Source: Halichondria panicea (lineage: Eukaryota > Porifera > Demospongiae > Suberitida > Halichondriidae). Taken from it: a stretch of 64,000 nt of DNA. A program made the translations under genes and the position numbers. Positions within the stretch are counted from its first letter, which is position 1. Each line of letters begins with the position of its first letter. Below the pieces are notes generated by a model that saw nothing but the letters and a program-made list of their open reading frames with translations, did not search any database and was not told the DNA's origin. Location of the stretch: positions 16,369,518 to 16,433,517 of the forward strand of contig NC_087377.1 in assembly GCF_963675165.1 (NCBI RefSeq), written 5' to 3'. Below, piece after piece: positions 30,375-64,000 of this stretch.

Positions 30375-30407
<33 letters not shown>

Positions 30408-32732: not shown

Positions 32733-33224
32733 CTATAAAAAGACTTAAGTGGCAGCAGCAGTGCAGTTCACATAGTCAACATAATTATACCTATATATAT
32801 GCTATGGGGGTGTCAATCCACACACACACCCCCATGCAAGCTACCAACACCACACAAACCGTGAATATAGATTTTTTATAAATTTTAAAGTGAGAATACA
32901 CTCAGGGAGTGCATGCAACCTCGATATTCATCATCATCACATTCGATTATAATTTATGTGTGAAGGGTTGCAACCATGCATGCATGCAGAGCCACTAGAA
33001 GTGTCTGCCGTTCATCTCCACCTCCAAAGTCTCAATTTAACCCTCGCTTTGCTCAGAATGAATATACAATAATTATACACATGCATATAGATACCCCATA
33101 CAATCTTAATATACAATCAGAGATGATCTAGATACGCCAGTTCTATATAATTATTCCCATACAAAAACAAGTAATGAGAGATACGCCAGTTCTAATATAA
33201 AGACTGAGAGATAGGTATTCCGAC

Positions 33225-36200: not shown

Positions 36201-36958
36201 AACACTGATTTACAGTTAACAGTTAGAGTTACGGAGTCTTCAAGAACATCTCCACTTTGTGTGCTAGTCAGTCGACAAGTATAATCTCCAGCTTGATCTC
36301 TTTGTATGTTCGTCAGCCTAATTACTGAAAATGTAGAAAATTCTTCCCCGGCTGGATTGTACCATTGCTGCTGGAATGTGCCAGGTAGATTATTAGTGGT
36401 CTGTAATAGAGTTGTAGCATCACCCTCTGTGACTACTCCATTTCCGATACTAACGGACGGTGCAAAAAAGCCTGTTCAGGGCCAGAAAAGTAATTATCAT
36501 AATAATAATTATTATTATTATCAAAACACTTAATTGGATCTTACCAGCTTGATAAATGGCTTGTCTTCTGTTGCCTGAGCATTGAAGGACGACAGGTATC
36601 CCCAACCCCAAAAAAGTAGTGGCATCATTGATGTACCAAGACACCGTTCTCTATGGTAACTCCAGTCGTTCCGCTTACAATAGTACTAGAATGAGCAGTC
36701 CACATTACATTAGTTGCAATAACGTCTCCATTCACATCAATGCACTGTATGCACGAGGTAGTAAGTGAAGCGTCGATAGAAATTATAGTAGTGAGATTGA
36801 AGGTTTCACTGCAAGTCTGGCCATGGATACCTGTATAAGAATATATATATAGAACACCAGCATTGCTATAACATAATACTAGCAGCTATTATGCTTCGAA
36901 ACTTACAAGGAACTAAGCAGAAGGAGACCAGTACTATCAGAGCTAGACCAACATCCAT
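33225..36958 (-). CDS. Six-Ig cell-surface protein, probable GPI anchor, frameshifted
   Basis: Minus-strand exons: 36907-36958 (signal peptide, ALIVLVSFCLV core), 36545-36830, 36214-36471, 35871-36155, 34217-34561, 33963-34168, 33798-33897, 33451-33741, 33225-33286. Six Ig-like domains are encoded. The fourth exon (ITLSCIY, ITWFHEG, YTCVIAN) and the eighth (LNVECEV, ITWLKDN, YTCVGTN) are canonical; the third lacks its first Cys; the fifth domain is split over 33963-34168 and 33798-33897. The last exon gives a C-terminal run of about 18 mostly hydrophobic residues directly before TGA, after an NGSS sequence, which is typical of a GPI signal, so a GPI-linked adhesion or recognition molecule is inferred. 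Exon 36545-36830 is 286 nt, one base off the phase required by its neighbours, and its frame meets TGA at 36625-36627. This is either a real frameshift, an assembly error, or an unrecognised 70-bp intron (donor GTGTCT). Confidence 0.75.
34694..35727. repeat. Minisatellite, unit about 50-55 bp, roughly 20 copies
   Basis: Fills most of the 1.3-kb intron between Ig exons 34217-34561 and 35871-36155. The core unit reads AGGAAGGCTACCTGAAGTGC then TTCACCAAGCTATACACATT and AAGTAAACTCTACTA. The first half contains a small palindrome (GGAAGGCCTTCC in the outer copies). Copies near the right end are more diverged. A piece of the same repeat recurs at 37157-37260. Confidence 0.92.
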
Positions 36959-40260: not shown

Positions 40261-42124
40261 TTATACTTGACTCGTAGACGTTAGTGGAGTATCTGTTTGC
40301 TTCTCATCATCATTTTTGCTCAAGTCTATCTTTTCCGGGAGTGGGCTAGCTTCAGAATCGAGATTGAGAGTGTTGTGATTACTGTGTATAAATGCGTTGC
40401 CTATGGAGGCGGTAGTGCCCGTGTTTTCCTTGGGTATACGAGTGCCTGTTCCTGTGGAGCTTGTGTTCTTATACTGTGAGGGGTGGAGGAACTCGGACTT
40501 GTAGCGGCTACACGAGAAAAACTCTCTCCATGATTCTCGAGCCTCTCCATTGAAGATAACGAAGAACAGAAATATAAAGAATCCTTGAAACGATGCGAAG
40601 ACAGTGAACAAAATTTGGAAGACAGTTCGAACAGCGTTGCTACTATTGATATTGATTGTGAGTGCAGCAAAGAGCCAGGTGAGACCAAACAGGAACATGA
40701 CACCTGAGACACTCACAAGTAGTCGGAGGGCAGTTTTGAAACTCATTTTCTGATTTGATCTCTTCATGTTTCCGCGAGTGTGTTTCAGGAGGATGACAAT
40801 GACCCAGATGAAGATGACCATGTTGAAGAGGAGAACGGCAAATATAGGAGCCAGGAAAGCACCAAAGAACACACCAGGATGCTTGAGGAAACAGCTGCAT
40901 ACAAAAACACAAATAAATCATTAAAGCAATGTGAATAGCATAATTATAAGCAAAACTTGCACACGAAATTGTTCAGTCAAACTCACATTCCTCCAGTGAC
41001 ATCTCCGGTGATGGGGTCAACATTCCGAGTGGTGATGAGGTCTGTCTCGGGAGTTGTCCCATCAGCCACATCAATAATCATCGGGATAAGGACAGGAATC
41101 AGGGGGAACACTGGGGGAGGGAGGGAGGGGGGAGTGAATCGTTTTTGCTAGGCTGCCTTGTAAGTCCACAAGCTTATGGCCTAACTAAACATTTATACTG
41201 ATAGTAAAGAGCAAAGAAACATGGTTTTTAGCTATTACTAAACCAAATTGCTATTACAGCATGTATAGTGAACAATAGTTGTACAACACTCATCATGAAC
41301 TTAAAATAATATTATTAACAGATTTGCATAATTGTACAGAGCCTATTATAGTGTGGTCCCACTGTGTGCACTGAAATGGTTGACTTACGTATTAGTGTTT
41401 GCATTTCAAGTGAGATGAATGTAGGTTTATGGCATGCATAGTGCATGTACAGGAAAACTTACGCCAACAAACTAGAGATAAAATGATGATAAAATTGGTC
41501 GTGATTCTCATGAAGACCATAACTAGTTTCTGGAACATGAGCAAGGCCTCTGCCCCCATCCACATGATGGACACCAGAGAGAAGTAGTGGATGAGGATGG
41601 ACACAAACACACAGCCTCCGTACACCTCGATACGTTCAATACCCACAGCAAACACAATGAGCATGCACAGGATGGCTATGGACAGCTGGATGTGGTACTT
41701 AGAGTTGTCCCTCTCCCTCAGTTTTCTGCAAAATAGAGAGAAAGCACAATTAAACTTTTTTCATCCATTCAGCAACACAAAATAATTGCTCAGGTAATTA
41801 CAAAATCACAATGCAATGTGTACTCCAACCTACAAAAGTAGACCACCGCAGGCACCCCTCAGCTAGGCTAAAAACAATCATATACCAGGGATACCAGGGA
41901 TCGACCTGGTATGACTGTTTTTAGCCTGAGGGCTAACATACAGCTTAGAGCAATGTTATGATACACTATTATAGCCTCACGATTACTTACTTGAACATTA
42001 TCATAGTGATGATTGTGACCACCAGTCCTACACAAGACAGCGCTATGCCAATGTAGCTTATGAAGGAGAGCACCTGATCCACCGTCGTATCATTCATACA
42101 GTCCTGAGCTCTTTGGCAAATGTC
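40261..42124 (-). other. Gene B seven-transmembrane domain with shortened tail
   Basis: 41991-42124 (TM1), 41463-41725 (TM2 to early TM4), 40987-41110 (TM4/ECL2), 40261-40894 (TM5-TM7 and tail). Helices are nearly identical to gene C. After TSQV the frame hits TAA because of two extra bases (TA) compared with gene C, where KLAEEGV follows. Beyond the stop, a further stretch present in C is missing. Confidence 0.9.
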
Positions 42125-45100
42125 CTGAGGGCGGAAACAACAGGAAAATGAAATAATATACCCCCATCACTGCACAAGTTTAAAGAGAATACTGTACTGA
42201 GCAATGAACTTACAACGAGCACAGCAAAGTTGGTGAGATGGGTACAGCTGCAACGGAAAGTGGTTTCATTCATCACTTCAGTGGTACAGCCGTCGGTGAT
42301 CCAACTGTCACTGACAAAGTCCCATGACACACAACGAGCAGTGCTGGGGTTAGTCTGAATTAAGGGGACATATAAAATTTGAGCGGGCACAGTACCCAGG
42401 AAATTCTGCACAGTTGGCCAAGTCTCATGTAGCTAGCCATCACTAGCCAACATAACATGATTATAATTATTAGGTATAGAACTTTTATAAGTAGATAGGG
42501 AGTATAATTATAGTACACATTTCCTACCATACGACTATACCCCTGGCAGCATGCACTCTTTACAAGCGACAGAAAATTGAGAGGCATCAAACATTTAGCG
42601 GTGTGTACTGTGTCCTTACACTTGAGTTCTCCGGTAGAGGTAGCAGGCCTAGTGTGATAACCACGGGGGGATCGAGGGGAACATCGCCACCAAAGTCAAT
42701 ACCAGGTCCCACGGTAGCAGCCACAATAGGAGTACCCACGGCCGTCTCTCGCACGGTCACGTTGTCCCTCACTACGGCTAACAAGTTTGTCGGCAAAAGA
42801 GCCGCGTTTTCATAGAGGGCAAAGTACACACCGATGACTGGTCTGTCAGCTGGTACCTGGTTAAAGAGCTCGGGTGGGAGTGCGATGGAGGCGGGGACTC
42901 CAGCTGTGGGGGGGTGGGTGTGTAATAATTATGAGATAGACAACTAACATACGTGTACGTACCTCTACGGGTGAAATCTTCCGTTCTTCCTTCTCTCATA
43001 AAAGTTTCAGTGGTGCCCTGAACAGAACAAGGGGCAGTTGGTCAATAGCTGTATACCAAGCACAGTCACTCTACATTCTTAGCTCTACTGGTACAATGCT
43101 CCCCTCCCCCAAGCTCCAATAACAGTACTCACCAGTTCAACGACGATTGTGACATCTGTGAATTCCACAGTGAGGTTGGACTGTTGTGCAAATTGTGTTG
43201 CCACGGCCTCAAATGATTTAACAATTCTGTAAGGGGTAAATTACGTCAGTATCATTCAAATTATAGGCTCTAGATCTCTAACAGGCTTACCTGGAGGTAG
43301 TATTGACCTCAAGACTGGAGGGCTGCCATTGTACGAGAGAGTTCAAAGTCTGACCCAAATGTGTCACCACCTGGAAAATAAACTAATAAACTAAAGCACA
43401 CAATTTACAACAGGCCTTTAATCTGGGTTGGAATCCAGAGTAAACCTAACCGCATTCGTGTAAACGGCCCTTATCCGGATAGAATCCGGATTAGCCAACC
43501 CACTTCTGGAGGTGGTGCAGAAGCGGTTTAGTTGTGAGTAAACACAAAGGCTCATTCTGAGGTGTTGTACATCTTTGTGGGTGTTTCTAGAGTAAGCCTG
43601 TAGCTTCTTATCAGCCAATGTTTGCGCAAATGCAATTAGTGGTCATTTTACTATGCCCACTACTCAGAAAAATCTGACCCGGCTTCAATCCAGATTCGAC
43701 CCAGATTAGGCGTCGTGTAAACGGGGCTTAAGCGATTTCTTGCTACAAGATGCTGTCTACATGTATACGTAAGTAAAAACACATAATTATGTTATATGGG
43801 ATGCATCATCGTATTTTAGTGTTAAAATGACAGAAATTTATGTCATTTCTACATTAAATTTCAAATGATGCATTTTATTTGAGATGTTTTATGTTATTAT
43901 AACATATCTGTTTTTACTGTGATATAGGTTGACATGCTAGCGTACCATTTCATTGATGGGTACAATGGTGGTGTTGGTGAAGTTAGCGATGCTGTTGAAC
44001 ACAGTGGACACATCATTGAGAAACTGCATGGTCTGAAGGAACGTCCTGTTCTCAGAGAGGGTAGTAAAGGACGAAACAACCTCACTGACGTTGGTGTAAG
44101 TCTCCTCTGATATCTACAAAACAAATTCATTAACTTGTGCTTGCGTGAAATACATAAACAACAAGCAACACAAATACATAAAATTATGTCACTTACTGTT
44201 TCGGGGACAACATTTTCGAGTGGAGCTGTGTGTGTGTGTGTGTGTGGGTGGGTGGGTTCACATGCATCTATTAAAAAAGCAATATATAACTTAATAGGCT
44301 GGCTATCAATAGATTGCTATAATGATAGAGTGGTTTATTGTAGTTTCGAAAATGTACTTTTGAGAGAGTATGCTAAGCAAGCTGACTCTCAAACTTTCTA
44401 TCAACTCATACTTACACATAACTATTTTGATAAATAATAGTGCTTTCATTTGCTGCAAATTCACCAAATATAGTACCCTAAAATTAGTTACCGTAAATAC
44501 TGCAATCTGATTGGCTAAAATGAAGTGTTCTATCCAACTTGTACTTACTTAGAAAATCATGTACTTTACTTAGAAAATCATAAAGATTAGACAAATCTGA
44601 TTGGCTAGATACTCACGGTTGCTATGATCTAAAATGCTGTTTAGCACACGATTTAGACTACGTTTGGGATACCACAGCCTTTGGGCTTCTAAATTATGTA
44701 GAAAAACTTCCTAAACAGTGTCTGACTATTATACAGAGAAAATTCTGAACACAAATACAGAACAGGACAGTGGTAATGCCTATACACACAGGTTATACTA
44801 AATAAGACAATTGCTAAAGCTTGCACACATGCACATGCAGGTAATAACTTTACATTCAGTATGTACTCACACGGACAGTTGAGTTCATCTGACATATCGG
44901 GACAATCAGCGGTGTTGAAGTCGCATACTTGAGCCGGAGGGATGCAGTCAACACTGAGTGTCTCCGTGTTGGTACACAAACGACTACCCAATCCAGCGTC
45001 AGCCGTGCAGTTACCTATAAGAAGCGACATACGATTTGGATCTACCCTAATAATTAACTAAGAGCTAGCTATTATTCTGAGTTATGGAATGCATAATTAT

Positions 45101-48100
45101 TTTGGCTGAGTGCAAAATCTTACGATCATTATCCAGGATGATTAGTCTATGACGGAGGTTGACTCTGGCCACTATGGGGGAGGAGCTCGAGTAGGAGAAG
45201 GTCACCTGCTCAACGGGACTTTCACTCTCCCCGTCAAATACCTCATCGTCCACAATGTTGACATCAAAGCATGCCTCAGTGGCCTCGGGTTGGAGGGTCA
45301 GAGTTACAATAGGGAACCCGTTAATATCCTCGGCAAACACATCTGATTCAATATCGTAGTCAAGAGTGTCTGTATAGAGAAACGATTCATGAGATAAGCA
45401 ATACCTATATATATAGTATATATAATTATAGTATATAGACACAGATATAGCAAGCGGCTATAGTGGTACTTAGTCAATGCCCACTTATTATGTTAGCAAC
45501 TCACCATTTGCTGAGGGGTATTGAACTATCTCACCCCCCTCCCCAGTATCGGGGGGGTTGTCTGTGACAAATTCAACAGGGAAAGTTGTGAAATTGATGT
45601 TTGTGGGTGGGATTATCTCCCCGCTGATTACGGACAAACAGATAGTGACAACATTTCCCTCAACAGCAATACTCTCAGTACTAGTGAACGCAACCTGAGT
45701 AGGGGGCTCTGTACGTACGTGGAAGGAGGTAAATCACATGACAGGCACATGACTCACTCACCAATCACTTATAATTATGAGAACAAACTATGTATTTGAA
45801 CATATAGCTCTCACCTTCATCATCCTCTATACTAATGTCAAGCAGCACGTTGGAGTCAAAATTGACAAAAGGAGAAGCATTAACGATGAATATACTGAAC
45901 GATTGTGTTTCCGCTAATATTTCATTATCAATGAGCTGAACTGAAGTGCACACTTCCATTTCACCCACTCTAATCACCACCATCTCATCCATTATTGAGA
46001 AATCTTCTGGTGAGGCTGCAGAGTAGACCCACATGACTATTGCGTGTTAGAACATAGAGTCTACAAGATGCATGATCGAGCTAGGGGATTCAAGCAATTA
46101 AGAAATGCTACATCCTAACCTATTTCCCCATCCCACTGACATCATACATTGTACATCAGCCTTCTTTTTTGTGATGGGATATTTTCTTATCAATTAGGCA
46201 ACCAGATTCAAACACACTATAGTCTGTGAGTGAAGTCTGAAAAATTGAAAACAGAACAAGATGGCAATGCTATAAAACGCAAGTTCATATGTACGGTCAC
46301 TCACCTGGCTTGTCTCCACTGAGGGAGAAGGACAGTGCGATATCGATGGGGCACTCTCGTCCACCGGCAGCGTCTTGAGAGATGTAGACACACACTTGCA
46401 AGCTCATCCCCTCAACAGCAGACAGGGGGGATCCAGTTGTGTTGAGAGACACTGTCACAGCTACATGCATATTAATTTGTGAAGGACACATGGTGTACAC
46501 CACAGTAAATGATACTATTATAGCGAATTGGTTAGGGCAGAGGTGTAAATAACTATAGACACTACATGTAAAGCAATTTGTTTGAGTAGTTTAATCTGAA
46601 TATTTAAGCCTTGTATCTGTGTGTCTACAGTTACAGCTTACAATCAGCAGCGTTGTCCTCAATAGTGACAGTGGCTTCACAGTCGTTTACACACATCACG
46701 TTATCTGCAGCAGCTCCACTTGCGGAGTACACTGCACTGTCAATCATAACCGTGAAATCTTGCTGGTTTCCTTCAAACACATCGTCATCCACAATAGAAA
46801 TACTAACACAATCGATAGTTCCGTTGATAGGAGACATGCTAGGGAATTCTACTGTTAAACCAGTTCCAGTTGTAAAATCATCACCAATAACTGTTGAGGG
46901 GAAAATTATAATGCATGCATTTATATACATGTGTTTTATTGATCATTGTCACGTAATAAGATTTTGCATATGCTAAAAGCTGAAGCTCCATGCATACTTA
47001 GGAAGCAACTATCAACGTTGCACAATTATTCACATAAACTGTATAATTATGTTTATACTTGTTTTGGCTCCATCGGTTGTTTCCAGCCCAATAGAGATGC
47101 TATACTGAGAGCCTATAGCCTCAGTGAGTATCTCCACACACACCATCAATGTTCCGCTCCCCTCCATTATATTATACTGAATAGGATTGAACCTCAAAGT
47201 GGCCTCTGCACATAAAGAAGTCATAGGCAAAAAGTATAATAATTATGATAACTAAAATATCAATTTCTCATGCATACGTCCAACATGCACTCTATAGCAC
47301 ATAACATCATCACAAATATTTGGTCAATATACCAGATATCAGTTTTCCAATACATGCATGTTGGATACTCGTATAGCAGGTATATTTCGAGGGTATAAAT
47401 TTTCGCGGATATACAAAGAATTTCGCGGTTTTTGTGGTCTGAGTTCCAGCCTTTGGTGCATGTGTACATCAACATGCAGCTGTAACTCCACACCGTTAGC
47501 CTCGAATCCAGGCCTAGCCTGTATAAAATAATAGAATCGGTGAGGCACTATGTCCTCCACCTCTAGCAGAACGTTTGCTGTGCAGGCCACGGTCAGGGGA
47601 TACCACCAGTACAAAACAATCTGGGCGTAGACGTAGAGCAAGCTAGCTGGCTATACCGGCGTCCTCGTCTCTTGATCCCTTTTGCTTTCCTCTTATTGTC
47701 GATAGGTGTGGTCAATAATACTAAACACGCAAACTATTCAATAAGATATAAATTTTCGTGGGTATACATTTTCGCAGTATACAGGCTCAATCCGTGAAAA
47801 CCGCAAACATTATACCCTCGAAATATACCCGCTATACGGTATGTAACTCACCAACACTCATGAACACACATTCAATGAAAACGCACCTTCATTATCAAGT
47901 ATGACCACCGTCTGTAGGATACTTGAGCCCGAAACACCACTCATTGTTAAGAGTACATTCATGTCCTCGGCGTCTTCCAGAAGTTCATCATCAACTATCA
48001 GTATCTCGGCAGCACTAGTAAACGTCCCGTTGATATCAGCGGGTAAGAGAGTGCTATGATCAGCACTACCAAAGGATACCGTCATAGAAGTCGTATTGTA

Positions 48101-51100
48101 GTCTTCAGTAAGTGCTGTATATGTATGCATGGAAAGCATATTACGATTGCCATAGAGCTGCCGCAAATAGAGCTTTCTAGTTATTAATTGCCCTACCAAA
48201 TACAACATATCTGGAGGTAGAAGCCGATCACCAAATTCAAATTATCAAAGGAGAAGGCAATGTCACTGAACAAACCGTCAAGTATATTCATTTCAGGCAC
48301 TCGAAAAGCTAGAGACCTTATTTCCTTGTTAGACTCAATATCCTCCACACTTTTAATGTTCACGATTGCGGCTAACATTTCACTTACTTGCAGCAATAGG
48401 AGAAACAGTTAAGTCTATTTCGATGATTCCCTGTACTCCGCCCGCTGGTACACTTTCGATTACTAAACGAGGAGAGACAGTGGCGTTCACACCCTCTGTG
48501 ACTGTCAGGGATGTGGCCTCAAATGAAAATGTAGCAGTACCAACTGCAGAAAATGTAACGACATCCAGTAAATAAATTTCTATCTTGTAACAGTTTCTAT
48601 ACATTATAGCTAGTGTGCTATTACAGTTAGAGTGAGAGTGAGATATGTAAGGAGAGCTAGTGTACCGTTCACATCCAATATGTTGATAGTCAGGTTAGCA
48701 GCAGCAGGGTCAACATTGGCATTAGATGAAGTCAAGTCAATGGAATAGGATTGGGTTGCCTCCAAGATGTCATCAGTCATAGCCGTAACATTGAAACATG
48801 TATTTATTATATTTTGAGTATTTACTTGGTCCGATACAGCAGTACTGTCAGTCATAAAGTCATCAGACACTAAGTTGTGAGATTGAGCAAACTTGTGAAC
48901 ACAAACCACTATATAATATGCAATATCACACTAGTGATGTCTGTAGCTACTTGAGCTATGTGGATACTTTTAGTATTACAGTAAAATTGCTCATACAATT
49001 ATTCTTGTTTAGAATGTACATGTACACCATGCAAATATTTAGTTATTTCACCTGCTGTGATTCCGTTGAAGTCAATATTGTACATAACCATACGCAAAAT
49101 GGCTCCCTGTGCCATGGTGTTAACACAGTAGGTCAGATCATCACCTTCGCTATGCTCGGCTGAGCCCATGACACTCAGTCCAATAACAGCATCTGAAAAA
49201 TAATTTACTGAATAATTTGGGGCAAAGAAAGAGAGAGCCATTCTACTCTTCGCTGAGTGAAATGCATAGTAGTTAAAATTAAACACTTGACTTAAAATAC
49301 CATAATTATTATAGGAGTATATTATACTATGCATGTACACAATTATAACCTCGCTGCATGCATGCATGTACTCTTAAGCAATCACACACAATCAAGCAGT
49401 TCATGCACAAATTGAAACCATAAATTAATGTAAAACTAAAAATGAGTGGTGCCACTTGATAGAACGTTCGCCTTCGAGCTGACTCAGCTAGGATTCAAGC
49501 AGCAAAACTAGACTGACTCAGCTGGCATTTTTGGGGGTGGGGTATTAGAAATGGTCATGTGAAGCTCATGTGGAGTCACGAGACCAACCACGTTGCCATG
49601 ATCATGTTGTGTTGATTATGTTGCCATGGTTATATAGCACCAAAAAACACAAGCAAGAGTACGAGTTATATTTATTGTCTACTACATCAGAATTGATGGC
49701 AGTAAACTTCTGAGGACGAGGGCGAAGTCCCCGAGGCCAAGGACAGTTTATGATTGTACATAACAATAATACCGTAGATCATAAGCATTAAAGGCACGCA
49801 TATCGATAATTATGTTTCACAAATTTATACACATGCACTCATGGCTTCTTACTAATACATGATGTACCTCAATAGCCACCTACCATCTCGGTCTGAAATC
49901 ACGATAATTGCAGTGGAGATGGTACCTCCAGAGGAGATCATTGTGCTGTCAAAAGAGATGGAAAAGGAATGGAATGACTCAAAGTCAATATCGTCGTTGA
50001 TGACGATATCGAACTCGAAAGTTGATGAACCCCCCGCGGAGAACATGATTTCCGAGGGTGTAGGTAGGGAGGCATCAGATGAATCTGTGATGCAAATCAT
50101 GATGTATATACTATACCAACACAATAATGCCAACTCTGTCTTAATCTCGAGCAGTATATCATGAATCACATGCCTAATCAACACACAAGGGGGGAATTTG
50201 TATTCCCCTCTAGTTAGTGTACAATAACCATAGCTCCTGCATATACTGAATACGTGTACATATTATTTTATTATGTACGTACCTGTCAGTGAATCAATGT
50301 TGAAGTTAGCAGTAACTAAGACGTTGAAGTCAGTTTGTATCTCTCCAGTGAGGCCCTCCAGAGAACCAGTTACTGTGCATGTAGAATCCTCCTCACAAGT
50401 GAAGGAGGTTTGGTCAAATGTGATGGTCACACTTGCTGGCTCTGTACAGAAGGGAAACAAATATTTTAATGAGCTAATGTCTCGCAGGATGCCACATTAA
50501 TTACTAAGTATTTTGGAAAAGGGTTGCACTAAGCCCGTAAAAAGTAATCTTTGAAATGCACAATGCAATGCATGTACTTATTTTGTACTAATTCATACAT
50601 AATTATAGGGCAGTTTATATTCGGAAATCGAAATCCAACTTAAGCACAAACGTATATAGCTTTTCTACGAATGCTATCTAATCACACACCATCATCGGTG
50701 ATGTTCAGTGACAAGGGCAGAGTACCCGTTGTCAACACTCCCTCAGGTTCAATACTTGTAATATTCACGCTGAAGTCATGGTCAAACTCGAGATCATCGT
50801 CATTCATAAAGCTGATCATAAAATTCTTAGCCACCGCTACTCCAACGCAATTCATACACGGACCAAATGTGATAGTTGGCATTGGCTGATGAGTGAAGTC
50901 GTCCATCACAACTGCAAAAATAAAGTTGATTATGTACATGCTCTATAGTAGCCCGACGAACATCTGCATGGCCACAAAAAGAGGTGGTATTAGTGAGGCA
51001 GGCAGGTACATGTAATCAGTACGTGTGGATGACAATCAGGGGCGTAACTAGCAATGAGGCTATTGAACTCAAGTTTTATGTGACTCACAGCAGTTTTCTG

Positions 51101-54100
51101 CCATTTGCATGCGCTTCTACGCGATAATTAGTGGGTGTGGTTTCCGGGCAAACAATTTGCGGGGGAGGGTTAAATTTTCTAGTTACGCCCCTGACAATTA
51201 TTTAACTCATATATGTACCGTACTCTACCGAGATTACGCCCACCCTAATTGCATGCTACAAAGCAGCTACAGGTAGGATGGGCTTAATTTCGAAAACAGT
51301 AGTTTTGTCTAGAAATTAAGCCCACCCAGGTGTTTGCCTCGAAATTAAACCTACTCATTAAGAAACTTTTCTTCTCAGGCTGAGTCTGAGGCCTGCCAGC
51401 TCTTGAAATACAATGAATACATCAACATACAACAATGGTAATGCATGGGTAAAGTAGCTAGGTATAAAGAGTCAAGATTCTGCACCAGAAGGCGTAATTT
51501 CGGACGTGGGCGTAATCTCGGTGGAGTACGGTATACCCCGTGAGCCCGAGTCAGCCCCAATGATAATGCAACTAGCACTATTAAGTACGTATACAAGCAA
51601 TAACCACCTGCATCTCCGTTAATTAGATCAAGATTGACTATGATGGTTCTCTCCAGATCTATACGTTGGCCGTCTGTTCGACTCAACGTAGCCACTACCG
51701 TCACTCCGCCATTTTCCTCTGCGTAATCAGGCATGGATTGAAGGGTTAGCCCTACTTGAAAGTCTCCGGCTGTATACGGAAACAGAAATACATAATTATG
51801 TATATACGTAGTACATCTACAACTATAGAGCTATACTATAAATGATGGCGATCTGCCCATTCTAATTATACAGTCTATAATTATTATGGTCACCATCATG
51901 TAATCAGAGCACCCTCTATAACACAACCATTGTTATAGTTTGCCCAAAGGTGACGCTTAAAGTGACAGGCTCAAATATTTATTGTTCAATCAAAGTGAAT
52001 TATAATTATAATTATAATTATGATCAATGATAGTAATAATTATTATTACATGCTGGCTGACAACTGCATGTGTGTATTACGTATGTACATACCATCATCA
52101 TCCTGCACACGTAGGTTAATACTTGTAGGGGAACCTAGTGTACAATCTTCGATGTCAGGAATTGTGATAGTCAAGCTCTCTGTGTTCTCCAGAATATCAT
52201 CATTGACTATCATGATGGGTGGTGAATTGACATTCATGACAGACCCACCATCAGGAAAAGATATATCCGGAATATCTCCAATGTCTGCTGAGCTGATTCC
52301 ACCGGGAGCTATGAAAGTGGTGAAATGCATTAGAGCTTGTTCAACATGCAGGTATATGCTTTTACTAACTTGCAAGAAACGGAGCCATCAGAGAAATGTT
52401 AAGGTTTCCATTCGCTCGCACTCCACTAAAACCACTAAACTGTACGCTCAACACTGCTCCGTCAGATTCAGTGAATTCTGTACTGATGCCTGATGAAAAT
52501 GACACTGTGCAGTCTGGAGAGATAGAGAAAAGTATAAAATTTAGCAGTACATCATGCACCAAATACACCATTTTTTCAAGCTACATGCATTTAATTTATA
52601 TAGAAGGACTCATAACATGCACACATAATTTATGCAGTACTGACTAACAGCTGCATGTAGTACAGTTTGTACGTATAATATACTCTACAACTATGCATAC
52701 TCCTCGATGAACATAGCAAGCACTTCAAAAAAGACCTATAACAAAAAAAGTTTGTTTTTGTCTCCCAATTTTCTAAACCAATTCTGCTAGTATTTCAAAT
52801 ACCATTATTATGACTGCGCTTCCCACTAATTGAGAGTCTGCATGGACAGCTTGTATCTTCTACTTACCACCACGATCTGTAATTGTAATTTCCGCAGTTT
52901 CCATTGTGATTTCTAGTGTACCGCTAGAAGGGCTGCTTGCCGATATACGTGCAGAGAAAGTTTCTGTTCCCTCAAAGTTGTCATCATCTATGATATCAAT
53001 GGACTCACACACAAGTGGGCCACTCATTGAGTCGAAAATAAAATCACGACTAAGTAGACCAGAACCAAAATCTGTAAGGAAAAGAAACATACACATAATA
53101 ATTATTGACTATAATAATATTTATGCTCAATATCAGCTTATTTATTCATGTATACATGATGATTATAAGCAAATTGTACAAGGTTATGTGTTACAGAGTA
53201 TACAATTATAGACATGCAGTGTGTGTACCTCGATCTATACGAGCTGTTTGCAAATTGTAATACTACAATAAAATTATGCGAACTTTACGAGTATACTAAT
53301 GGTTTGCAAAATATAATTTTATGGTTTTGCGAAGCATTATATTATAGTAATACGGTATGTATGTACATGCACATGCATGTTATAGTGTATGTACATGTAC
53401 CTAGTGATCCTGCATCCGGTGTTCCAGGATCACCCGTTAGAGTGATTGTCACGCTGAATGAGACTCCATCACTGATTGAGTCGACATCTCGGATCACCAA
53501 ACACACCATATCATCAGCACCACCTTCTGCAAACTCGTACGTTGATTCGTTAAACTCGACCATTGAATCCTCTGAAAACAAACCGTTATGGTTAATAGGT
53601 CATGGAACGTCGTAACAGGTCAGGTATATAGACAAGAAACAATGATGTGCTTAAAAAGCGTGTTCATTATAAAGATATTTCTAAGGATAGCATGTGATAT
53701 ACTACCTAGTCACCTAATTCATCATCCTGAATGTTAAATGTAGCTTCAGAAGGCGACATCATGTTTCTTACAACTCCAGGAGGGTCAGATGTATTGGCAA
53801 GGGTTAGGGTAAAGCTGTGATTAAATTCAAGGATTGCGTCATCCACAATTGTCACCGCAACAATACTCCCCTCAGTGGTCTGCCCAGGAGTGAATGTTAT
53901 ACTATCCTCATCAAGAACGTAATCTGCACCAGAAAGGATTAGAAGTTTGAACAATTATCTGCGTGATATTATTATTATTCTCATAAACACATGAACTATT
54001 ACGTCATTGATAGTTAGTGTGTTGCGAATGGAAATGCGGTTGCAGGATATGATACATACCTGCAGTATCTCCAGAGTCATGTTCTATTCCAATGGTGATG

Positions 54101-57100
54101 GTCGTGTCTAACGTAGCACTATTATCCAAAACAACGAAAGCCGTAAAATTGACAGTCATATCAGTGCCTTCAATGGCATCCACTGAAGCTATCAAATTGT
54201 ATGTTGCCAGAGAAACTATGGGCACAAAGAGAATAGATTGTGAATAAAACAATTATGTATAATATAAATATAATTATTATAACCATGCACACACTGACAG
54301 CAACAATCATGCACAATACAAAATACGTACACGGCGACTGTAATAAAGAGAGAACACACAAGTTTAACACTATTATTGCATCACTTGCACTCATGATTAC
54401 TACCTGATTACTATGGTGTATGATGCACTAGCTTACCATCATCATCGACAATGGTCACTGTCTGAAGAGTTGTGTCTAGAACCACATTATCCATAAACGC
54501 AGCGGGTACAGATTGGAGAAAAACATTGAAACTGTGTGGTCCTTCAATAGAGACATCATCCATAGCCATTATTCCGCTGACGCTTATGGTATCAACGGAG
54601 AATGCGGAGAATGTGACTTGAAAAGGATTTGGTACTGAATAATCGGTATTGATGTCTGTACGAATAGAAGTTGACATGATACACACAAATGCAATAGATA
54701 CTTGAGGCAACCGCGTAATTCACACGCACATTGTACATAATCATATTATTATCATACATACTCAAATAATTATGCTGTGAAAAACACACAAAAGCAGATT
54801 TTTAATACAAAGTAACAAGCTAGACAATTAATAGCTCCTGTTTTATGGACCCTATAACATTATATATACCGTACCAGTCCGAGAATCAATTGTGTCGTTA
54901 GTAGCCAGTGTAACAGTGAGGAAACTTAGTCCCAAAATGACACTACCAGGAGATATCATAACTTGAATATTAAGCGAAGAGCCACTTCCATCCTCCATTA
55001 ACGTCAAGTTTGTAACAGGTACAATAGAAATGGTCACCACTACAGGTGGAAGTAACATAAACACAAGGACATTGTACGTATACTCTGCTAGTCCTTCATG
55101 CATGTGTAATTTAGGAGACATTTATTTGCTGGTAGTACAAAAGTTCTATACGCGAATCAGAAAAGCATAATTATACCATCAAACACTCAATTTATAACCT
55201 CCCCAGAATTCCTGTGAGTCAACCAACCTATATTCACAAAACACTTGGAGTAATCGCAAAAGACTTGCAAAACTTATAGTTCAATGGAATCTCAAGTATG
55301 TATAGAATAATAACGTTAATCTAGAAAACTATATGTAGCGCCATACAGGATTTTGCGAGGACCAAACAAGAATAAAAGATTCAGTTGTACTAACATTATT
55401 ATTTTGTGAGTAAAATGAATATAGATGAGTGCATCTAGATGGTACATGTACACAGTAAAATCCCATTATGCTCAAAGTCAGATGATTCGTGTATACAGAG
55501 TCAAGCATCAGTAACATAACACTTACTCTCATTGTCTTCGATCGTCACTGTACCAGTGGTGCTAGGGCCCAGATTAACGTTATTGCCAGCATCATTGACT
55601 ATTGCTAGTGACACCATGAGTGTTTCAATGCCATCCAGAGTGTCATCGTCGATTATTGTCAAGTTTACACAAGCAGTACTTCCATTCACACTTCCAACCG
55701 GAAACATTGCTGTTGTGTCAGCAGGCACCATGTAGTCAGAACCCTGAGCTACACAGGTGGGAATTATTATGGGAGATTGAGTCAATTTTGCAAACTGTAC
55801 ACAAAATACCACAATAATAGCTACTTACTTCCACATACGTGCATGTGCATGTATACATGTACTTGAGCTCATCTGGAGGAATACAGTTTAATTGGTGCTT
55901 AACAACATAGAGCTAGAGAATGTTTATGAATGGATCAATTTACTAGTATTCAGGCACCCCGTCCACGTAATCTTATAGTAATTATCTTACGAAAGATCTC
56001 AAAAGAGAATGTGCTATTTGGAGTATGTATCTCACTTGCTGAAGCATTCGAAATAAATGAGAAAGTGACTTCGATAGGGAAAGTTATATTGGTGAGAAAA
56101 GCTGATACTTGAGCACAAACAGACACAACACCATCGCCCTCACGACCAGTGAAGTCAGTTGATTCCAAGTTCACAATCGGATCTGTAGATATATACATGC
56201 AAAGTATTGGTATATATATATACAGTCGCAATGTATAGACAGATTTACAGTGTACACCACAGTAATGGTACAATGTATAATAATTATAGTGAAGTGGTTA
56301 GGATATAGAGGTGTAAACAATAATAGACACACCATAAGATTAGAACAATGAGAAGTTAAATCTGAATGTGTCTATAATTACATCACCGGCCCCCATTAAA
56401 AATTAAGTGCATGATCATTTTATCTGGAACTACAACTATATACAGTCATGTAATTACGTATTATAATCTGATTAGTGCAGTACATGCAATAACAGTCCAA
56501 ATACAGTATTCATACAGTAGTACGTAGTTTTGATGTGACAATAGCAAATTCGTTATTAGTTTCCAGAGGAGGTATATAGTCCGGTTTTAATTGTGCATTC
56601 CGATCATCTACTGAATCAACAAAGGATTGGAGAAGAATTAGACGATCGGAATGCACATCCGGAATCGTAAGACCTGACATTAATTGACTATAATGAAAGC
56701 ACCATGGGTGCTGGTGCCTCGGTGGAGGTGCCAAAGCTACATATAACCTACTAATGGCTAGCTTTTATATATACACACATTGATCATGATCACAACATTT
56801 TAATTTTATTGCATGCAGAATCCAGAATCACAGGGAAACTCAAAGAGTGGGTAATGATCGAGGATGATTGTTGTTAAAAACGATCGATGCCAAAAGTTCA
56901 AGTGTAAAATTAATGGCTGCAAGTCAGCAGAGCCTTGCAGCTCTCTTCTCACTCTTACAGCTACCAATAGCTAGCGTTCTACTGCAGAGCTAACTACTAA
57001 GTATAGAGTAGCAACACTCGGTGAACAAGTTTTACTACGCACTCATCTGAAAAGACTGCATGCAATGGCATTCCAAGAAGCAAAACTAGGCATTAACTCG

Positions 57101-58507
57101 AGAACAAAACTTTTTTGCAAATCCATGAATTAAAATCCAAGAGAACATGACTAGAAGCCTATAGAAACTCTACTTATCACTTCATTGATCCTTGAGCAGC
57201 TGTAGCAGCCTGACTACATAACACACACATGCACACACAAACAAACTACCGTATACCTCGCTTAATTGCGCATGCGAACCGAGGCATAATTATCATTCTC
57301 TGGGACCTTTCCTATCAAAACCGAATACTAAAATTGTATAGGGAGCCGAGGGTGTGACAAAGTAATGCATGCATGTCACATAAAAATTATGAATATACAC
57401 ATCCACACACATATACCAGCGTTAACTTATATAATTATCGTTAGTTTGGAGATTCGAAATTTAATTTCCATGCATGCAATGGTATCTCCCCCATTAAAAA
57501 GTGCATGACTATATTTCATCTGGGACTACAACTACAGTCATATGTACTAGCTTACTGTCATCGTTGTCCAGAATAATGACTATAATTGTTCCTTGCATGG
57601 GAATTGCTATCGAAGTACCTGCACCCGAGATTAACACGGCAAAATCTTCATTACCCTCAAGAAATTCATCATCTACTGTCTGGTGGTACATTATGGCCAC
57701 AGTTCCACTCGTTGGTCCTGGGGGTATACACACTTCTATAGGTTGTGTGGACGCCAGGTCATCAGCCTTTGCTAGGTTTTCCGTTGCTGCATTTGTTTTA
57801 CGACATCAGTAAACATGTGGAAGGTTTTAAGTTAGTCTAAAAAATAGTTACTAAATATATATAATTATAGAGTATAATCACTGACCAGAAAAGAACATAA
57901 GATTCACGCCAGTACATTCAGTAGAGGTAATAGTTTGATTAGCCTCATATGTCAGATTGAGAATTGGACGTTCACCCTCGTCGACAGACAATTCCTCTGT
58001 TGTAAACATCAATGCTACGAAAAAACAAAATTGGAAAAAATAATGGAGTTTGTGAGTTTTATTATGAGATAACGCATGCATACACATGCACACATGCATG
58101 CACTGTTTGTATACGTATAGATGGCGCAGCCTGGTATCTAATGGTACAACTGTTATTACAAACAAGTGCACGTTTTTAGCGAAAAGTCCATATTTGCACG
58201 ACTTATGCATACACAGTGGCTATCTTTATATAGGCTGTACTGCATGCTCACGCCAAATGATAAGCGACAAACTGATATAAAGTATACACTTCGCTGAGGG
58301 CATAATAATGTACATGCATGAAAGTATACAAATACTGTTACGAGTAGCCACTAAATGGAAGCATGCGCATTCAATATACACTCTTCACTTTCTGTCACTC
58401 GATACAGTATAATACTGAGACTCACTTTGTATAGCGCACGATACTTGTGGAGTTGTGCAGGAGAGGAAAACTGCTGCAAGTACAAACAAGAGAGTGAAGT
58501 CCTTCAT
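40261..58507 (-). CDS. ADGRV1-like adhesion GPCR with 13 Calx-beta domains (gene B)
   Basis: I read 39 minus-strand exons, 7122 nt, 2373 aa; lists are in the block entries. Signal peptide exon 58426-58507 (KDFTLLFVLAAVFLSC), then 26 exons forming 13 Calx-beta domains (to about residue 1657), LDLa (1658-1705), GAIN (1706-1942), GPS (1943-1989, CTHLTNF), seven helices and a short tail to TAA at 40261-40263. It is a plasma-membrane adhesion receptor; tandem calcium-binding Calx-beta arrays form long extracellular fibres in vertebrate ADGRV1/VLGR1, and a similar tether role is inferred. Unlike ADGRV1 as I know it, it has an LDLa module and no EPTP repeats. The cytoplasmic tail is shortened relative to genes A and C. 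From LDLa onward, exon lengths match A and C almost exactly, including a 29-nt exon. ADGRV1 orthology is not claimed; only domain order is similar. Confidence 0.88.
41855..41931. repeat. Inverted-repeat hairpin in a 7TM intron
   Basis: CCCCTCAGCTAGGCTAAAAA on the left pairs with TTTTTAGCCTGAGGG on the right, with ATACCAGG/CCTGGTAT inside. The same hairpin occurs at the matching place in gene C (61147-61222), so it predates the B/C duplication. Confidence 0.7.
42214..45014 (-). other. Gene B LDLa and GAIN/GPS exons
   Basis: 44871-45014 is the LDLa (DCPDMSDELNC). 44197-44225, 43946-44113, 43291-43370, 43133-43226, 42963-43017 and 42620-42903 are GAIN. 42214-42354 is the GPS with CVSWDF and CTHLTNFAVLV. 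The GAIN exon 42620-42903 carries three residues (TVRETAV region) absent from gene A but present in gene C. Confidence 0.92.
43418..43735. mobile_element. MITE-like element in a GAIN intron of gene B
   Basis: The left part reads TAATCTGGGTTGGAATCCAG and the right part TCAATCCAGATTCGACCCAG followed by ATTA, an imperfect inverted repeat; internal GTGTAAACGG blocks also appear in both halves. It is shared with gene C (62705-63020) at the same intron position. Non-coding. Confidence 0.6.
47374..47834. mobile_element. MITE-like inverted-repeat element, copy 3
   Basis: In the intron between the 10th and 11th Calx-beta pairs. It starts TAGCAGGTATATTTCGAGGG and ends with the near reverse complement (CCCTCGAAATATACCCGCTA). 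It is longer than copy 1 (15665-15855), so it may contain a nested insertion. Confidence 0.65.
49443..49505 (+). repeat. Possible tRNA-like (SINE-type) fragment
   Basis: GTGGTGCCACTTGATAGAAC followed by GTTCGCCTTCGAG and, about 20 bp later, GGATTCAAGCAG loosely resembles an A box and B box in tRNA order. The cloverleaf is poor and no acceptor stem forms. A decayed tRNA-derived repeat is possible; no functional tRNA. Confidence 0.2.
51037..51193. mobile_element. 157-bp MITE with 15-bp perfect TIRs and 5-bp TSD
   Basis: CAGGGGCGTAACTAG at 51037-51051 is the exact reverse complement of 51179-51193, and both sides are flanked by ACAAT (51032-51036 and 51194-51198). It sits in the intron between halves of the seventh Calx-beta domain. 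No coding capacity. The ends are suggestive of an hAT- or similar DNA-transposon derivative; the family is not assigned. Confidence 0.88.
51214..51534. mobile_element. Second fold-back element adjacent to the MITE
   Basis: CCGAGATTACGCCCACC near the left end and GGGCGTAATCTCGG near the right are inverted, extending outward to TACCGTACTC / GAGTACGGTA. Internal copies of AAATTAAGCCCACC repeat the theme. It shares the G-GGCGTAA word with the neighbouring MITE, so the two may be related. Confidence 0.65.
56700..57292 (-). repeat. Inverted copy of the SPFH-like gene upstream region
   Basis: Reverse-complemented, this intronic stretch follows 27146-27620 block by block: TGCCTCGG, GTTTCTATAGGCTTCTA, GAACGCTAGCTATTGGTAGC, GCATCGATCGTTTTTAACAA, TTTGGCACCTCCACCGAGGC. 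It has local indels. It lies between the first and second Calx-beta pairs of gene B. Confidence 0.85.
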
Positions 58508-58951: not shown

Positions 58952-61900
58952 CTAAGTTTCAGGCACTTCTTGGTCATCACTGTTCTCATTTTCAGAGTCT
59001 ATCTCTTCGATATGATGGTTGGAGACCCTCTTTGTAGAGTAGGGCTTGACCCTGGCCTTGGAAATAAGCTTAGCATCTGACCAATTTGGAGGTGCCATCT
59101 CTTCATCCTCATCTCCGTCCACTTGACTCTCGACAACGATATCAGAGTGACTGAAAGTAGACACACCTTCTTCGGCTAGTTTTACTTGACTCGTAGACGC
59201 TAGTAGAATATCTGTTTGGTTATCATCACTTTTGCTCCTTTTCTCCGGGAGTGAGCTAGCTTCAGAATCGAGATTTACCGTGTTATAATTACTGTATATA
59301 TATGTGTTGCCTACAGAGGAGGATGTAGCGGTAGTGCCCGTGTTTGCCTCGGATGTACGAGTGCCTTTTTCTGTGGAGTTTGTATGTGAGGGTGTGTTGC
59401 CTGTGGAGAAGGACGCACCGGTAGTGCCCGTGTTTGCCTTGGGTGTACGAGTGCCTGTTCCTGTGGAGTTTGTATGTGAGGGTGTGTTACCTGTGGAGGA
59501 GGACATACCGGTAGTGCCCGTGTTTTCCTTGGGTGTACGAGTGCCTGTTCCTGTGGAGTTTGTATGTGAGGGTGTGTTAACTGTGGAGGAGGACATACCG
59601 GTAGTGCCCGTGTTTGCCTTGGGTGTACGAGTGCCTGTTCCTGTGGAGTTTGTATGTGAGGGTGTGTTAACTGTGGAGGAGGACATACCGGTAGTGCCCG
59701 TGTTTGCCTTGGGTGTACGAGTGCCTGTTCCTGTGGAGTTCGTGTTCTTATACTGTGAGGGGTGGAGGAGTGAGGACTTGTAGCGGCCACAACACAGATC
59801 TCTCCATAATTCCCGAGCTTCTCCATTGAAGATAACAAAGAACAGAAATATATAGAACCCTTGAAACGATGCAAAGACAGCGAAAAAAATTTGGAAGATA
59901 GTTCGAACAGCGTTGCTACCATTAATATTGATTGTGAGTGCAGCAAAGAGCCAGGTGAGGCCAAACAGGAACATGACACCAGAGATGCTCACAAGTAGTC
60001 GGAGGGAAGTTTTGATACTCATTTTTTGATTTGATCTCTTCATGTTTTCGCGAGTGTGTTTCAGGAGGATGACAATGACCCAGATGAAGATGACCATGTT
60101 GAAGAGGAGAACGGCAAATATAGGAGCCAGGAAAGCACCAAAGAACACACCAGGATGCTTGAGGAAACAGCTGCATACAAAAACACATTCATGACATCAT
60201 TTTAGCCACAGGAATGAACACCATATCAATATACTTGCACACGAAAATATTTACTCAAACTCACATTCCTCCAGTGACATTTCCGGTGATGGGGTCAACA
60301 TTCCGAGTGATGATGAGGTCTGTCTCGGGAGTTGTCCCGTCAGCCAGATCAATAATCATCGGGATAAGGACAGGAATCAGGGGGAACACTGGGGGGGGGG
60401 GGGGGGAGGGGGGAGTGAATTGTTTTTTCTAGGCTGCCTTGTAAGTCCACAAGCTTATGGCCTAACTAAACATTTATATACTGTGTAATTGATAGTAAAG
60501 AGCGGAGATACATGATTTTTAAGCTGGTATTACTAAACCATAATGCTTTTGCTATTACAAGCATGTATAGTGAACAATAGTTGTACAACACTCATCATGA
60601 ACTTAAAGATTTGCTATAATTATAATTGTACAGAGCCTATTATAGTGTGGTCGCACTGTGTGCACTGAAATGGTTGACTTACGTATTAGTGTTTGCATTT
60701 TGTGAGATGAATGTAGGTTGTATGGCATGCATAGTACATGTACAGGAAAACTTACGCCAACAAGCTAGAGATAAAATGATGATAAAATTGGTCGTGATTG
60801 TCATGAAGACTAGGACTAGTTTCTGGAACATGAGCAAGGCCTCTGCCCCCATCCACATGACGGACACCAGAGAGAAGTAGTGGATGAGGATGGACACAAA
60901 CACACAGCCTCCGTACACCTCGATACGTTCAATACCCACAGCAAACACAATGAGCATGCACAGGATGGCTATGGACAGCTGGATGTGGTACTTGGAGTTG
61001 TCTCTCTCTCTCAGTTTTCTGCAAAATAGAGAGAAAGTACAGTTAAACTTTTTTTATCCATTCAACAACACAAAATAATTGCTCAGTTAATTACAAAATC
61101 ACAATGCAATGTGTACTCCAACCTACAAAAGTAGACCACCGTAGGCACCCCTCAGCTAGGCTAAAAACAGTCATATACCAGGGATACCAGGGATCGACCT
61201 GGTATGACTGTTTTTAGTCTGAGGGGTAACATACAGCTTATAGAGCAATGTTATGATACACTATTATAGCCTCACGATTACTTACTTGAACATTATCATA
61301 GTGATGATTGTGACTACCAGTCCTACACAAGACAGCGCTATGCCAATGTAGCTTATGAAGGAGAGCACCTGATCCACAGTCGGATCATTCATACAGTCCT
61401 GAGCTCTTTGGCAAATGTCCTGAGGCCGGAAACAACAGGAAAATGAAATAATACACCCCATCACTGCACAAGTTTAAAGAGAATACTGTACTGAGCAATG
61501 AACTTACAACGAGCACAGCAAAGTTGGTGAGATGGGTACAGCTGCAACGGAAAGTGGTTTCATTCACCACTTCAGTGGTACAGCCGTCGGTGATCCAACT
61601 GTCACTGACAAAGTCCCATGACACACAACGAGCAGTGCTGGGGTTAGTCTGAATTATAAGGGGACATATAAATTTGAGCGGGCACAGTACCCAGGAAATT
61701 CTGCACAGTTGGCCAAGTCTCATGTAGCTAGCCATCACTAGCCAACATAACATGATTATAATTATTAGGTACAGAACTTTTATAAGTAGATAGGGAGTAT
61801 AATTATAGTACACATTTCCTACCATACGACTATACCCCCGGCAGCATGCACTGTTTACAAGCGACAGAAAATTGAGAGGCATCAAACATTTAGCGGTGTG

Positions 61901-64000
61901 TACTGTGTCCTTACACTTGAGTTCTCCGGTAGAGGTAGCAGGCCTAGTGTGATAACCACGGGGGGATCGAGGGGAACAATGCCACCAAAGTCAATACCAG
62001 GTCCCACGGTAGCAGCCACAATAGGAGTACCCACGGCCGTCTCTCGCACGGTCACGTTGTCCCTCACTACGGCTAACAAGTTTGTCGGCAAAAGAGCCGC
62101 GTTTTCATAGAGGGCAAAGTACACACCGATAACGGGTCTGTCAGCTGGTACCTGGTTGAAGAGCTCGGGTGGGAGTGCGATGGAGGCGGGGACTCCAGCT
62201 GTGGGGGGGTGGGTGTGTAATAATTATGAGATAGACAACTAACATACGTGTACGTACCTCTACGGGTGAAATCTTCCGTTCTTCCTTCTCTCATAAAAGT
62301 TTCAGTGGTGCCCTGAACAAAACAAGGGGCAGTTGGTCAATAGCGTTATACTAAGCACAGTCACTCTACATTCTTAGCTCTACTGGTACAATGCTCGCCT
62401 CCCCCAAGCTCCAATAACAGTACTCACCAGTTCAACGATGATTGTGACATCTGTGAATTCCACAGTGAGGTTGGACTGTTGTGCAAATTGTGTTGCCACG
62501 GCCTCAAATGATTCAACAATTCTGTAAGGGGTAAATTACGTCAGTATCATTCAAATTATAGGCTCTAGATCTCTAACAGGCTTACCTGGAGGTAGTATTG
62601 ACCTCAAGACTGGAGGGCTGCCATTGTACGAGAGAGTTCAAAGTCTGACCCAAATGTGTCACCACCTGGAAAATAAACTAATAAACTAAAGCACACAATT
62701 TACTTAATCTGGGTTGGAATCCAGAGTAAACCTAACCGCGTTCGTGTAAACGGCCCTTATCCGGATTCTAATCCGGATTAGCCAACCCACTTCTGGAGGT
62801 GGTGCAGAAGCGGTTTAGCTGTGAGTAAACACAAAGGCTCATTCTGAGGTGTTGTACATGTTTGTGGGTGTTTCTAGAGTAAGCCTGTAGCTTCTTATCA
62901 GCCAATGTTTGCGCAAATGCAATTAGTGGTCATTTTACTATGCCCACTACTTAGAAAAATCTGACCCGCTTCAATCCAGATTCATCCCAGATTAGGTGTC
63001 GTGTAAACGGGGCTTAAGCGATTCTTGCTACAAGATGCTGTCTACATGTATACGTACGTAAAAACACATAATTATGTTATATGCATGGGATGCATCATCG
63101 TATTTTAGTGTTAAAATGACAGACATTTATGTCATTTCTACATTAAATTTCAAATGATGCATTTTATTTGAGATGTTTTATGTTATTATAACATATCTGT
63201 GATATAGGTTGACATGCTAGCGTACAATTTCATTGATGGGTACAATGGTGGTGTTGGTGAAGTTAGCGATGCTGTTGAACACAGTGGACACATCATTGAG
63301 AAACTGCATGGTCTGAAGGAACGTCCTGTTCTCAGAGAGGGTAGTAAAGGACGAAACAACCTCACTGACGTTGGTGTAAGTCTCCTCTGATATCTACAAA
63401 ACAAATTCATTAGCTTGTGCTTGCGTGAAATGCAACACAAATACATAAAATTATGTCACTTACTGTTTCGGGGACAACATTTTCGAGTGGAGCTGTGTGT
63501 GTGTGTGTGTGTGTGTGGGTGGAATTCACATGCATCTATTAAAAAAGCAATATATAACTTAATAGGCTGGCTATCAATAGATTGCTATAATGATAGAGTG
63601 GTTTATTGTAGTTTCGAAAATGTACTTTTGAGAGAGTATGCTAAGCAAGCTGACTCTCAAACTTTCCATCAACTCATACTTACACATAATTATTTTGATA
63701 AATAATATTGTGCTTTCATTTGCTGCAAATTCGCCAAATATAGTACCCTAAAATTAGTTGCCGTATATACTGCAATCTGATTGGCTAAAACAAAGTGTTC
63801 TATCCGACTTGTACTTACTTAGAAAATCATGTACTTTACTTAGAAAATCATAAAGATTAGACAAATCTGATTGGCTAGATACTCACGGTTGCTATGATCT
63901 AAAATGCTGTTTAGCACACGATTTAGACTACGTTTGGGATACCACAGCCTTTGGGCTTCTAAATCATGTAGAAAAACTTCCTAAACAGTGTCTGACTATT
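58952..64000 (-). CDS. Adhesion GPCR gene C, 3' part
   Basis: Minus-strand exons: 63464-63492, 63226-63393, 62586-62665, 62428-62521, 62258-62312, 61915-62198, 61508-61648, 61286-61419, 60756-61018, 60265-60388, 58952-60170. They match gene B exon for exon: GAIN, GPS (CTHLTNFAVLV), TM1-TM7. The 5' part is cut off by the window edge; an LDLa exon would be expected just beyond 64000. The cytoplasmic tail is long, contains five tandem 30-residue Ser/Thr-rich units and ends with the acidic motif and QEVPET shared with gene A. Introns are near-identical to gene B by eye, so the duplication is recent or the copies are being homogenised. Confidence 0.9.
59304..59741 (-). repeat. Coding 90-bp tandem repeat in the gene C tail
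   Basis: Five units of 30 codons with the consensus NSTGTGTRTPKANTGTTG followed by MSSSTVNTPSHT. The two nearest the membrane are almost identical and the last is diverged. Genes A and B have a single unit at this place. The peptide is Ser/Thr-rich and probably disordered and phosphorylated. Confidence 0.9.
60391..60411 (+). repeat. G-rich tract at the ECL2 exon acceptor
   Basis: A run of G on the plus strand, i.e. the C-rich polypyrimidine tract of the acceptor for exon 60265-60388. The equivalent sites in genes A (21758-21769) and B (41113-41132) are also homopolymer-rich. Confidence 0.6.
61147..61222. repeat. Inverted-repeat hairpin, gene C copy
   Basis: Same palindrome as 41855-41931, at the same intron position. 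Confidence 0.7.
62705..63020. mobile_element. MITE-like element in a GAIN intron of gene C
   Basis: Same element as 43418-43735 at the same intron position, with a small difference at its left border. Non-coding. Confidence 0.6.

Follow-up and report, generated by a model that had tools for sequence, protein, structure and literature searches.

A probable non-ADGRV adhesion receptor with thirteen Calx-beta domains in a locally expanded family of the sponge Halichondria panicea

We analyzed 64,000 nucleotides (nt) of Halichondria panicea DNA (NCBI RefSeq assembly GCF_963675165.1, contig NC_087377.1, positions 16,369,518 to 16,433,517), referred to below as the window. One gene, on its minus strand, encodes a receptor with 13 Calx-beta domains, an LDLa domain, a GAIN/GPS region and a seven-transmembrane (7TM) domain. 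We put the probability at about 85% that this gene is a non-ADGRV adhesion G-protein-coupled receptor (GPCR) of a locally expanded family, in which a constant LDLa-GAIN-7TM chassis is combined with interchangeable ectodomain exons bounded by phase-1 introns. Positions without a prefix are those of the window; C1, which holds the window, C2, C15 and so on denote sequences of the same assembly.

Gene structure and domains

The receptor gene runs from 58507 to 40261 and has 39 exons (Table 1). Joined, they give 7113 nt and 2370 amino acids (aa) with a single terminal stop. All 38 introns are GT-AG. Introns 1–28 are all in phase 1 (28/28), so that exons 2–28 are each symmetric (1-1) and can move without breaking the frame, and introns 29–38 are of mixed phases. 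The exons were chained with anchor peptides chosen by eye, splice scores and the reading frame. The first chain was 7542 nt long and contained over-long exon versions; five exon ends were then adjusted by hand. A sequence-only reading of the window had described signal peptide, 13 Calx-beta domains, LDLa, GAIN/GPS with an HL^T site and 7TM in one frame over 39 exons. This frame was recovered, with the signal peptide recognized by eye, and the length of 7122 nt was corrected by 3 codons.

Table 1. Positions of the receptor gene parts and of its sister genes in the window.
Feature	Positions	Strand	Basis and remarks
Exon 1, start codon and signal peptide (MKDFTLLFVLAAVFLSCTTPQVSCA, by eye)	58426..58507	-	Exon chaining; an identical exon heads tandem copy 2
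Exons 2–27, 13 Calx-beta domains, two phase-1 exons per domain	45124..58014	-	Exon model, Pfam, Calx-beta profile
Exons 26–27, Calx-beta 13	45124..45708	-	Identity 89% to plus-strand copy and 67% to C15 copy; travels with the chassis
Exon 28, LDLa	44871..45014	-	Exon model; Pfam 20.7 bits, below cut-off; above cut-off in copy 3 and copy 4 models
Exons 29–35, GAIN and GPS (CSCTHL^TNFAVLV)	42214..44225	-	Pfam GPS, structure alignment, copy comparison
Exons 36–39, 7TM and cytoplasmic tail ending TSQV-stop	40261..42124	-	Exon model, Pfam, PDB search
Inverted sister gene (plus copy), 1324-aa model	15583..22840	+	Signal peptide, Calx-beta, Ig-like (sub-threshold), Calx-beta 13, LDLa (sub-threshold), GAIN/GPS, 7TM
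Tandem copy 2, 3′ part	58952..64000	-	Extends past the window to C1:16447849

Pfam scored the receptor at 113.5 bits for 7tm_2, 43.5 bits for GPS and 160.8 bits for Calx-beta, with only four Calx-beta stretches passing individually. With a profile made from 39 Calx-beta domains of other genes, each of the 13 units gave an E value between 1.3e-6 and 2.5e-21, in a test that is not wholly independent because the 39 training domains were initially found with a window-derived profile. When the profile was run within the whole protein, the weakest unit was Calx06 (E 2.6e-4); the best of 260 shuffled controls had an E of 0.14. The LDLa domain, which had been placed beside GAIN, is indeed encoded there by exon 28. 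Its six cysteines and the motif CDxxxxDCxDxSDE are readable, even though the Pfam score stays below the cut-off of 24.1 bits. The segment ahead of GPS aligned with latrophilin-3 (chain 6vhh, E 3.9e-9), and Pfam GAIN found no match in the receptor at E 0.01. The HL^T site occupies residues 1978–1980, with H at 1978. No EPTP repeat was found in the receptor protein with Pfam at E 0.01, in agreement with the earlier remark that such repeats are lacking. By 7tm_2 and GAIN/GPS the receptor is an adhesion GPCR, and cleavage is predicted from the motif.

Placement of the 7TM domain and a separate ADGRV-type receptor

A long series of Calx-beta domains, followed in the same frame by GAIN and 7TM, makes the window receptor resemble ADGRV1 (VLGR1/GPR98), and one earlier suggestion was that the receptor is an early-branching relative of ADGRV1 that lost EPTP and gained LDLa. 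Compared with ADGRV1, however, it has neither EPTP repeats nor a DTHL tail, its 7TM falls outside ADGRV, and it carries LDLa and the HL^T site. In a search of the PDB, the receptor chassis scored 139 bits with ADGRG2 (110.4 bits with the 7TM-only ADGRG2 chain) versus 18.7 bits with ADGRV1 (9fte). The nearest solved relatives are ADGRG2, ADGRG6 and ADGRG4. ADGRV1 scored two other non-ADGRV receptors of this genome, at 37.8 and 41.9 bits, above the window gene.

In a 20-row tree of 7TM domains, ADGRV1 and a receptor on C15 came together (95/94), and the window family lay within a clade of 13 rows from its own genome (100/99), apart from ADGRG2 plus ADGRG6. Thus, the window 7TM was not inside ADGRG in this tree, which included only two ADGRG rows. 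Five of the 16 fetched 7TM loci were left out, namely C7, which has broken frames, and C15b, C11, C13 and C8b, which by eye are near copies of kept rows. The approximately unbiased (AU) test rejected a clade of the window family with ADGRV (p 2.3e-5), which is the comparison of the 7TM domain alone that the sequence-only reading had asked for. It also rejected a single clade uniting all three kinds of receptor that have a Calx array (p 5.6e-6). A receptor on C2 (C2:5235001-5247000) has NIDO and 11 Calx-beta stretches, followed by GPS with HLT and 7TM; with this receptor as sister to the window family, p was 0.014 against, which is not decisive.

The receptor on C15 (C15:829100-867280, minus strand) has a Calx-beta array, EPTP, 7TM and a DTHL tail. 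Among adhesion GPCRs, EPTP repeats are a known hallmark of ADGRV. A genome search for EPTP gave four matches, three of them above the cut-off, and two of those lie at C15:851241-851659 within this second Calx-beta array. With the frames joined, the C15:851241-851659 segment scored 39 bits. The C15 7TM matched human ADGRV1 (9fte) at 100 bits (E 2.1e-27), with ADGRG2 next at 29 bits (E 9.8e-6). Its C-terminus is IADTHL, and excerpts of two papers (PMC10039067, PMC5896214) give DTHL as the PDZ ligand of vertebrate ADGRV1. The window receptor ends in TSQV and has no DTHL C-terminus. The GPS-like stretch of the C15 receptor is degenerate (CACRQFGDLAA, without H-x-T/S), and self-cleavage is probably absent from it. 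The C15 receptor is the apparent ADGRV orthologue of this genome. According to an eLife 2025 paper (PMC12716839), choanoflagellates and filastereans have orthologues of ADGRV, and a sponge is therefore expected to have one as well. The window 7TM had 103 matches in the genome, none of them at C15:829-832k (131 of 163 candidates were scored). Given this second receptor, the PDB scores, the tree and the AU test, we consider an ADGRV1 relative at the window locus extremely improbable. The other EPTP pair of the genome search lies at C13:517893-518285 (minus strand), with one match above the cut-off, in an open frame of 352 residues.

Sister copies and the origin of the Calx-beta exons

The receptor family has five copies on C1 and two on C15. 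Compared with the window gene (copy 1), identities in GAIN and 7TM are 98% and 94% for copy 2, 93% and 95% for copy 3, 88% and 92% for copy 4, 87% and 90% for the plus copy, and 86% and 87% for the second C15 copy. The first C15 copy was read from its GPS onward only. A counterpart of exon 1 lies upstream of copy 3 (89% match across 18 residues), and the 29-nt microexon, exon 29, is also found in copy 2 and in the plus copy. As modeled, the ectodomains differ. The copy 3 GPCR model has Sushi and LDLa by Pfam, and the adjoining predicted gene, which we took as its upstream part, holds an Ig array; copy 4 has Ig, Sushi, LDLa and one Calx-beta; a C15 copy has SRCR, Calx-beta and LDLa. These models suggest that the sister copies carry swapped ectodomains on a shared core. 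They support the other earlier suggestion, namely convergent assembly of Calx-beta onto another 7TM chassis.

Copy 1 ends after TSQV (40261-40270). Copies 2, 3 and the plus copy continue to a long acidic tail, and the number of NTGTTG-type tail repeats varies among copies. TSQV was not retained as a candidate PDZ ligand, since copy 2 reads through it. A further relative at C7:1509001-1510900 gave piecewise matches with 57–84% identity and frame breaks, and is probably a pseudogene.

We weighed whether the model misjoins two genes, one for a secreted protein with Calx-beta domains and the other for a short receptor made of LDLa, GAIN and 7TM. There is no 7tm_2 among the matches listed for the neighboring Calx-beta genes (C1:16225-16359k), exon 29 is preceded by a 645-nt intron, and the exon joins are predicted from genomic sequence. 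A gene finder retrained on the receptor gene was run with three penalties and gave exact matches to 35, 36 and 36 of the 39 exons; under the two laxer penalties (2/3 settings) it split the gene at exon 19. This exon is the weak spot of the model; it has a poor donor (gtacac) and was skipped by a later gene-finder model, which had 38 exons in one gene. Against a misjoin stands tandem copy 2, directly upstream (C1:16428469-16447849). With tblastn, 38 of the 39 exons were found there in order; exon 29 is too short for tblastn, and in the alignment it is identical between the two copies. The 39 exons were thus duplicated as one unit. In addition, the phase-1 frame is unbroken through exon 28, and Calx13-LDLa is also linked to GAIN and 7TM in the plus copy and in the C15 model. 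This co-duplication and recurrent linkage speak strongly for a single gene, and we regard two misjoined genes as very unlikely.

To compare sequence change between copies 1 and 2, we counted differences with and without masking of columns near gaps. Unmasked, ectodomain dN was 2.1% versus 2.0% in introns (p 0.72); introns 11 and 13, which have long gaps, hold 69 of the 156 intron changes. Masked, ectodomain dN was 1.65% versus 0.73% in introns (p 3.5e-5). The masked ratio of nonsynonymous to synonymous changes was 58.5:12.5 in the ectodomain versus 15.5:12.5 in the chassis (p 0.010), with the changes clustered in few exons and the sites not independent. Ectodomain dS was also raised, to 1.2%. 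Diversifying selection on the ectodomain is suggested by these counts. The chassis has a dN/dS of about 0.39, a sign of constraint. Its dN was below the rate of its introns with p 0.007 unmasked, 0.13 masked and 0.18 without intron 37, a difference that is not significant after masking.

The same numbers bear on the reading of copy 1 as a duplicated pseudogene or decaying copy. Its ectodomain exons diverge from those of copy 2 at least as fast as introns, and its cytoplasmic tail is shorter than that of copy 2. However, all 39 exons are open with GT-AG ends. Gap columns, present in seven of exons 2–38, are multiples of 3 in 7/7 of them, in contrast to exon 39 (383 gap columns, not a multiple of 3) and to the introns, whose gap totals take any number. 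Together with the dN/dS of the chassis, this leaves decay a very slim chance.

To find the closest relatives of the 13 Calx-beta units, we searched with each of them by blast and set aside the other domains of the gene itself. The plus-strand neighbors at C1:16225-16359k were the best group for 10 of the 13, and the top neighbor match was Calx08 (91 bits, 44% identity). The exceptions were Calx01, closest to the C2 receptor, and Calx05 and Calx13, closest to the plus copy. The Calx-beta gene at C2:270-278k contributed no sequence to the comparison. Neighbors scored better than ADGRV for 13 of 13 units. A non-ADGRV chassis with neighbor-like Calx-beta units argues that Calx-beta exons were assembled onto another chassis.

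In our models, these neighbors are genes of very large size that by eye contain Calx-beta, Ig and Sushi domains. That they are aggregation factor genes is a guess. In one of them (C1:16258878-16287637), exon matches recur every 9448 bases, four times. The window itself holds a giant predicted gene at 182-11911 (plus strand) with Ig- and Sushi-like and then Calx-beta-like exons, whose tail by eye resembles that of the neighbor ending at C1:16306309. At 27931-36958 (minus strand) lies a predicted 989-aa gene, Ig-like by eye and followed by a long charged region. Elsewhere, a Calx-beta match at C6:2382998-2383231 (minus strand) falls in an open frame that runs for 10065 residues without a break.

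Several points weigh against the reading as a non-ADGRV receptor with exchangeable ectodomains. The 39-exon model is a prediction from genomic sequence, and an earlier self-trained gene finder, since discarded, ran the whole 264 kb together as a single gene on each strand. The sister-copy models come from a gene finder trained on the same family and are reliable for domain content but not for exact base positions; copy 3 is split across two predicted genes, with its Ig array in the second. At a threshold of E 0.1, Pfam did not recognize the C15 7TM as 7tm_2. Both ADGRV rows of the tree are long branches, and dropping either one sends the other to a base position, not into the window clade. The Calx-beta sets compared differ in size, with about 13.6 kb of ADGRV array versus 19,765 residues of neighbor models; the set from the C2 receptor, although far smaller, likewise scores better than ADGRV for 13 of 13 units, so set size is not the explanation.

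Proposed working and known systems

We propose that LDLa, GAIN with HL^T and 7TM form a constant module, to which exchangeable ectodomain exons are joined through phase-1 introns. In copy 1, twelve Calx-beta domains, mostly nearest to those of the neighboring giant Calx-beta/Ig/Sushi genes, stand ahead of the resident Calx-beta 13. Calcium may stiffen this Calx-beta arm, and the arm may bind a ligand in the matrix or on a neighboring cell. A pull on the arm would then remove the N-terminal fragment at HL^T, which would expose the tethered agonist TNFAVLV and switch on a G protein. In a bolder reading, the locus would keep one LDLa-GAIN-7TM receptor and re-arm it with phase-1 exons captured from aggregation-factor-like Calx-beta/Ig/Sushi genes next to it. 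Diversifying selection would act on the arm, whose role in these early-branching animals would be to tell self from non-self or to recognize microbes. The masked excess of ectodomain changes slightly raises the weight of this reading, and we still consider it unlikely.

Among known receptors, ADGRG2, ADGRG6 and ADGRG4 (group VIII) are the best solved relatives of the window chassis, but the window family sits in the tree clade of 13 own-genome rows and not inside ADGRG. The ectodomains of these three receptors are not known to have Calx-beta arrays. The window family also resembles the adhesion GPCRs of Amphimedon described in Krishnan 2014 (PMC4302439), in which GPS and 7TM are combined with ectodomains of various kinds, SRCR repeats among them. 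The main text of that paper, figures apart, has no word starting with "calx". Among the titles and abstract openings listed by literature searches on adhesion GPCRs, Calx-beta, sponges and domain shuffling, none described such an architecture or a constant chassis with a changing array. A figure legend on Halichondria panicea receptors names Calx-beta and NIDO among the domains (PMC8242945), and the figure itself may already show a receptor of this kind.

The neighborhood recalls sponge aggregation factors. An aggregation factor gene encodes a secreted protein with a Wreath domain and Calx-beta, and a cluster of such Calx-beta protein genes was reportedly described by Grice in 2017. Aggregation factors are not known to be 7TM receptors. 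The clustered Calx-beta genes are common to both systems, whereas the window gene encodes a 7TM receptor. A review (PMC10815962) describes clustered genes for Calx-beta proteins as the sponge aggregation factor cluster, which controls allorecognition in Amphimedon.

At the strengths given above, one genome has both an ADGRV and, independent of it, at least one adhesion GPCR with Calx-beta domains, and a long Calx-beta array alone would not mark ADGRV1. An ADGRV with EPTP repeats and a DTHL tail would be placed in a sponge. One 7TM core with different outer domains inside about 85 kb would make domain capture by phase-1 exons directly testable.

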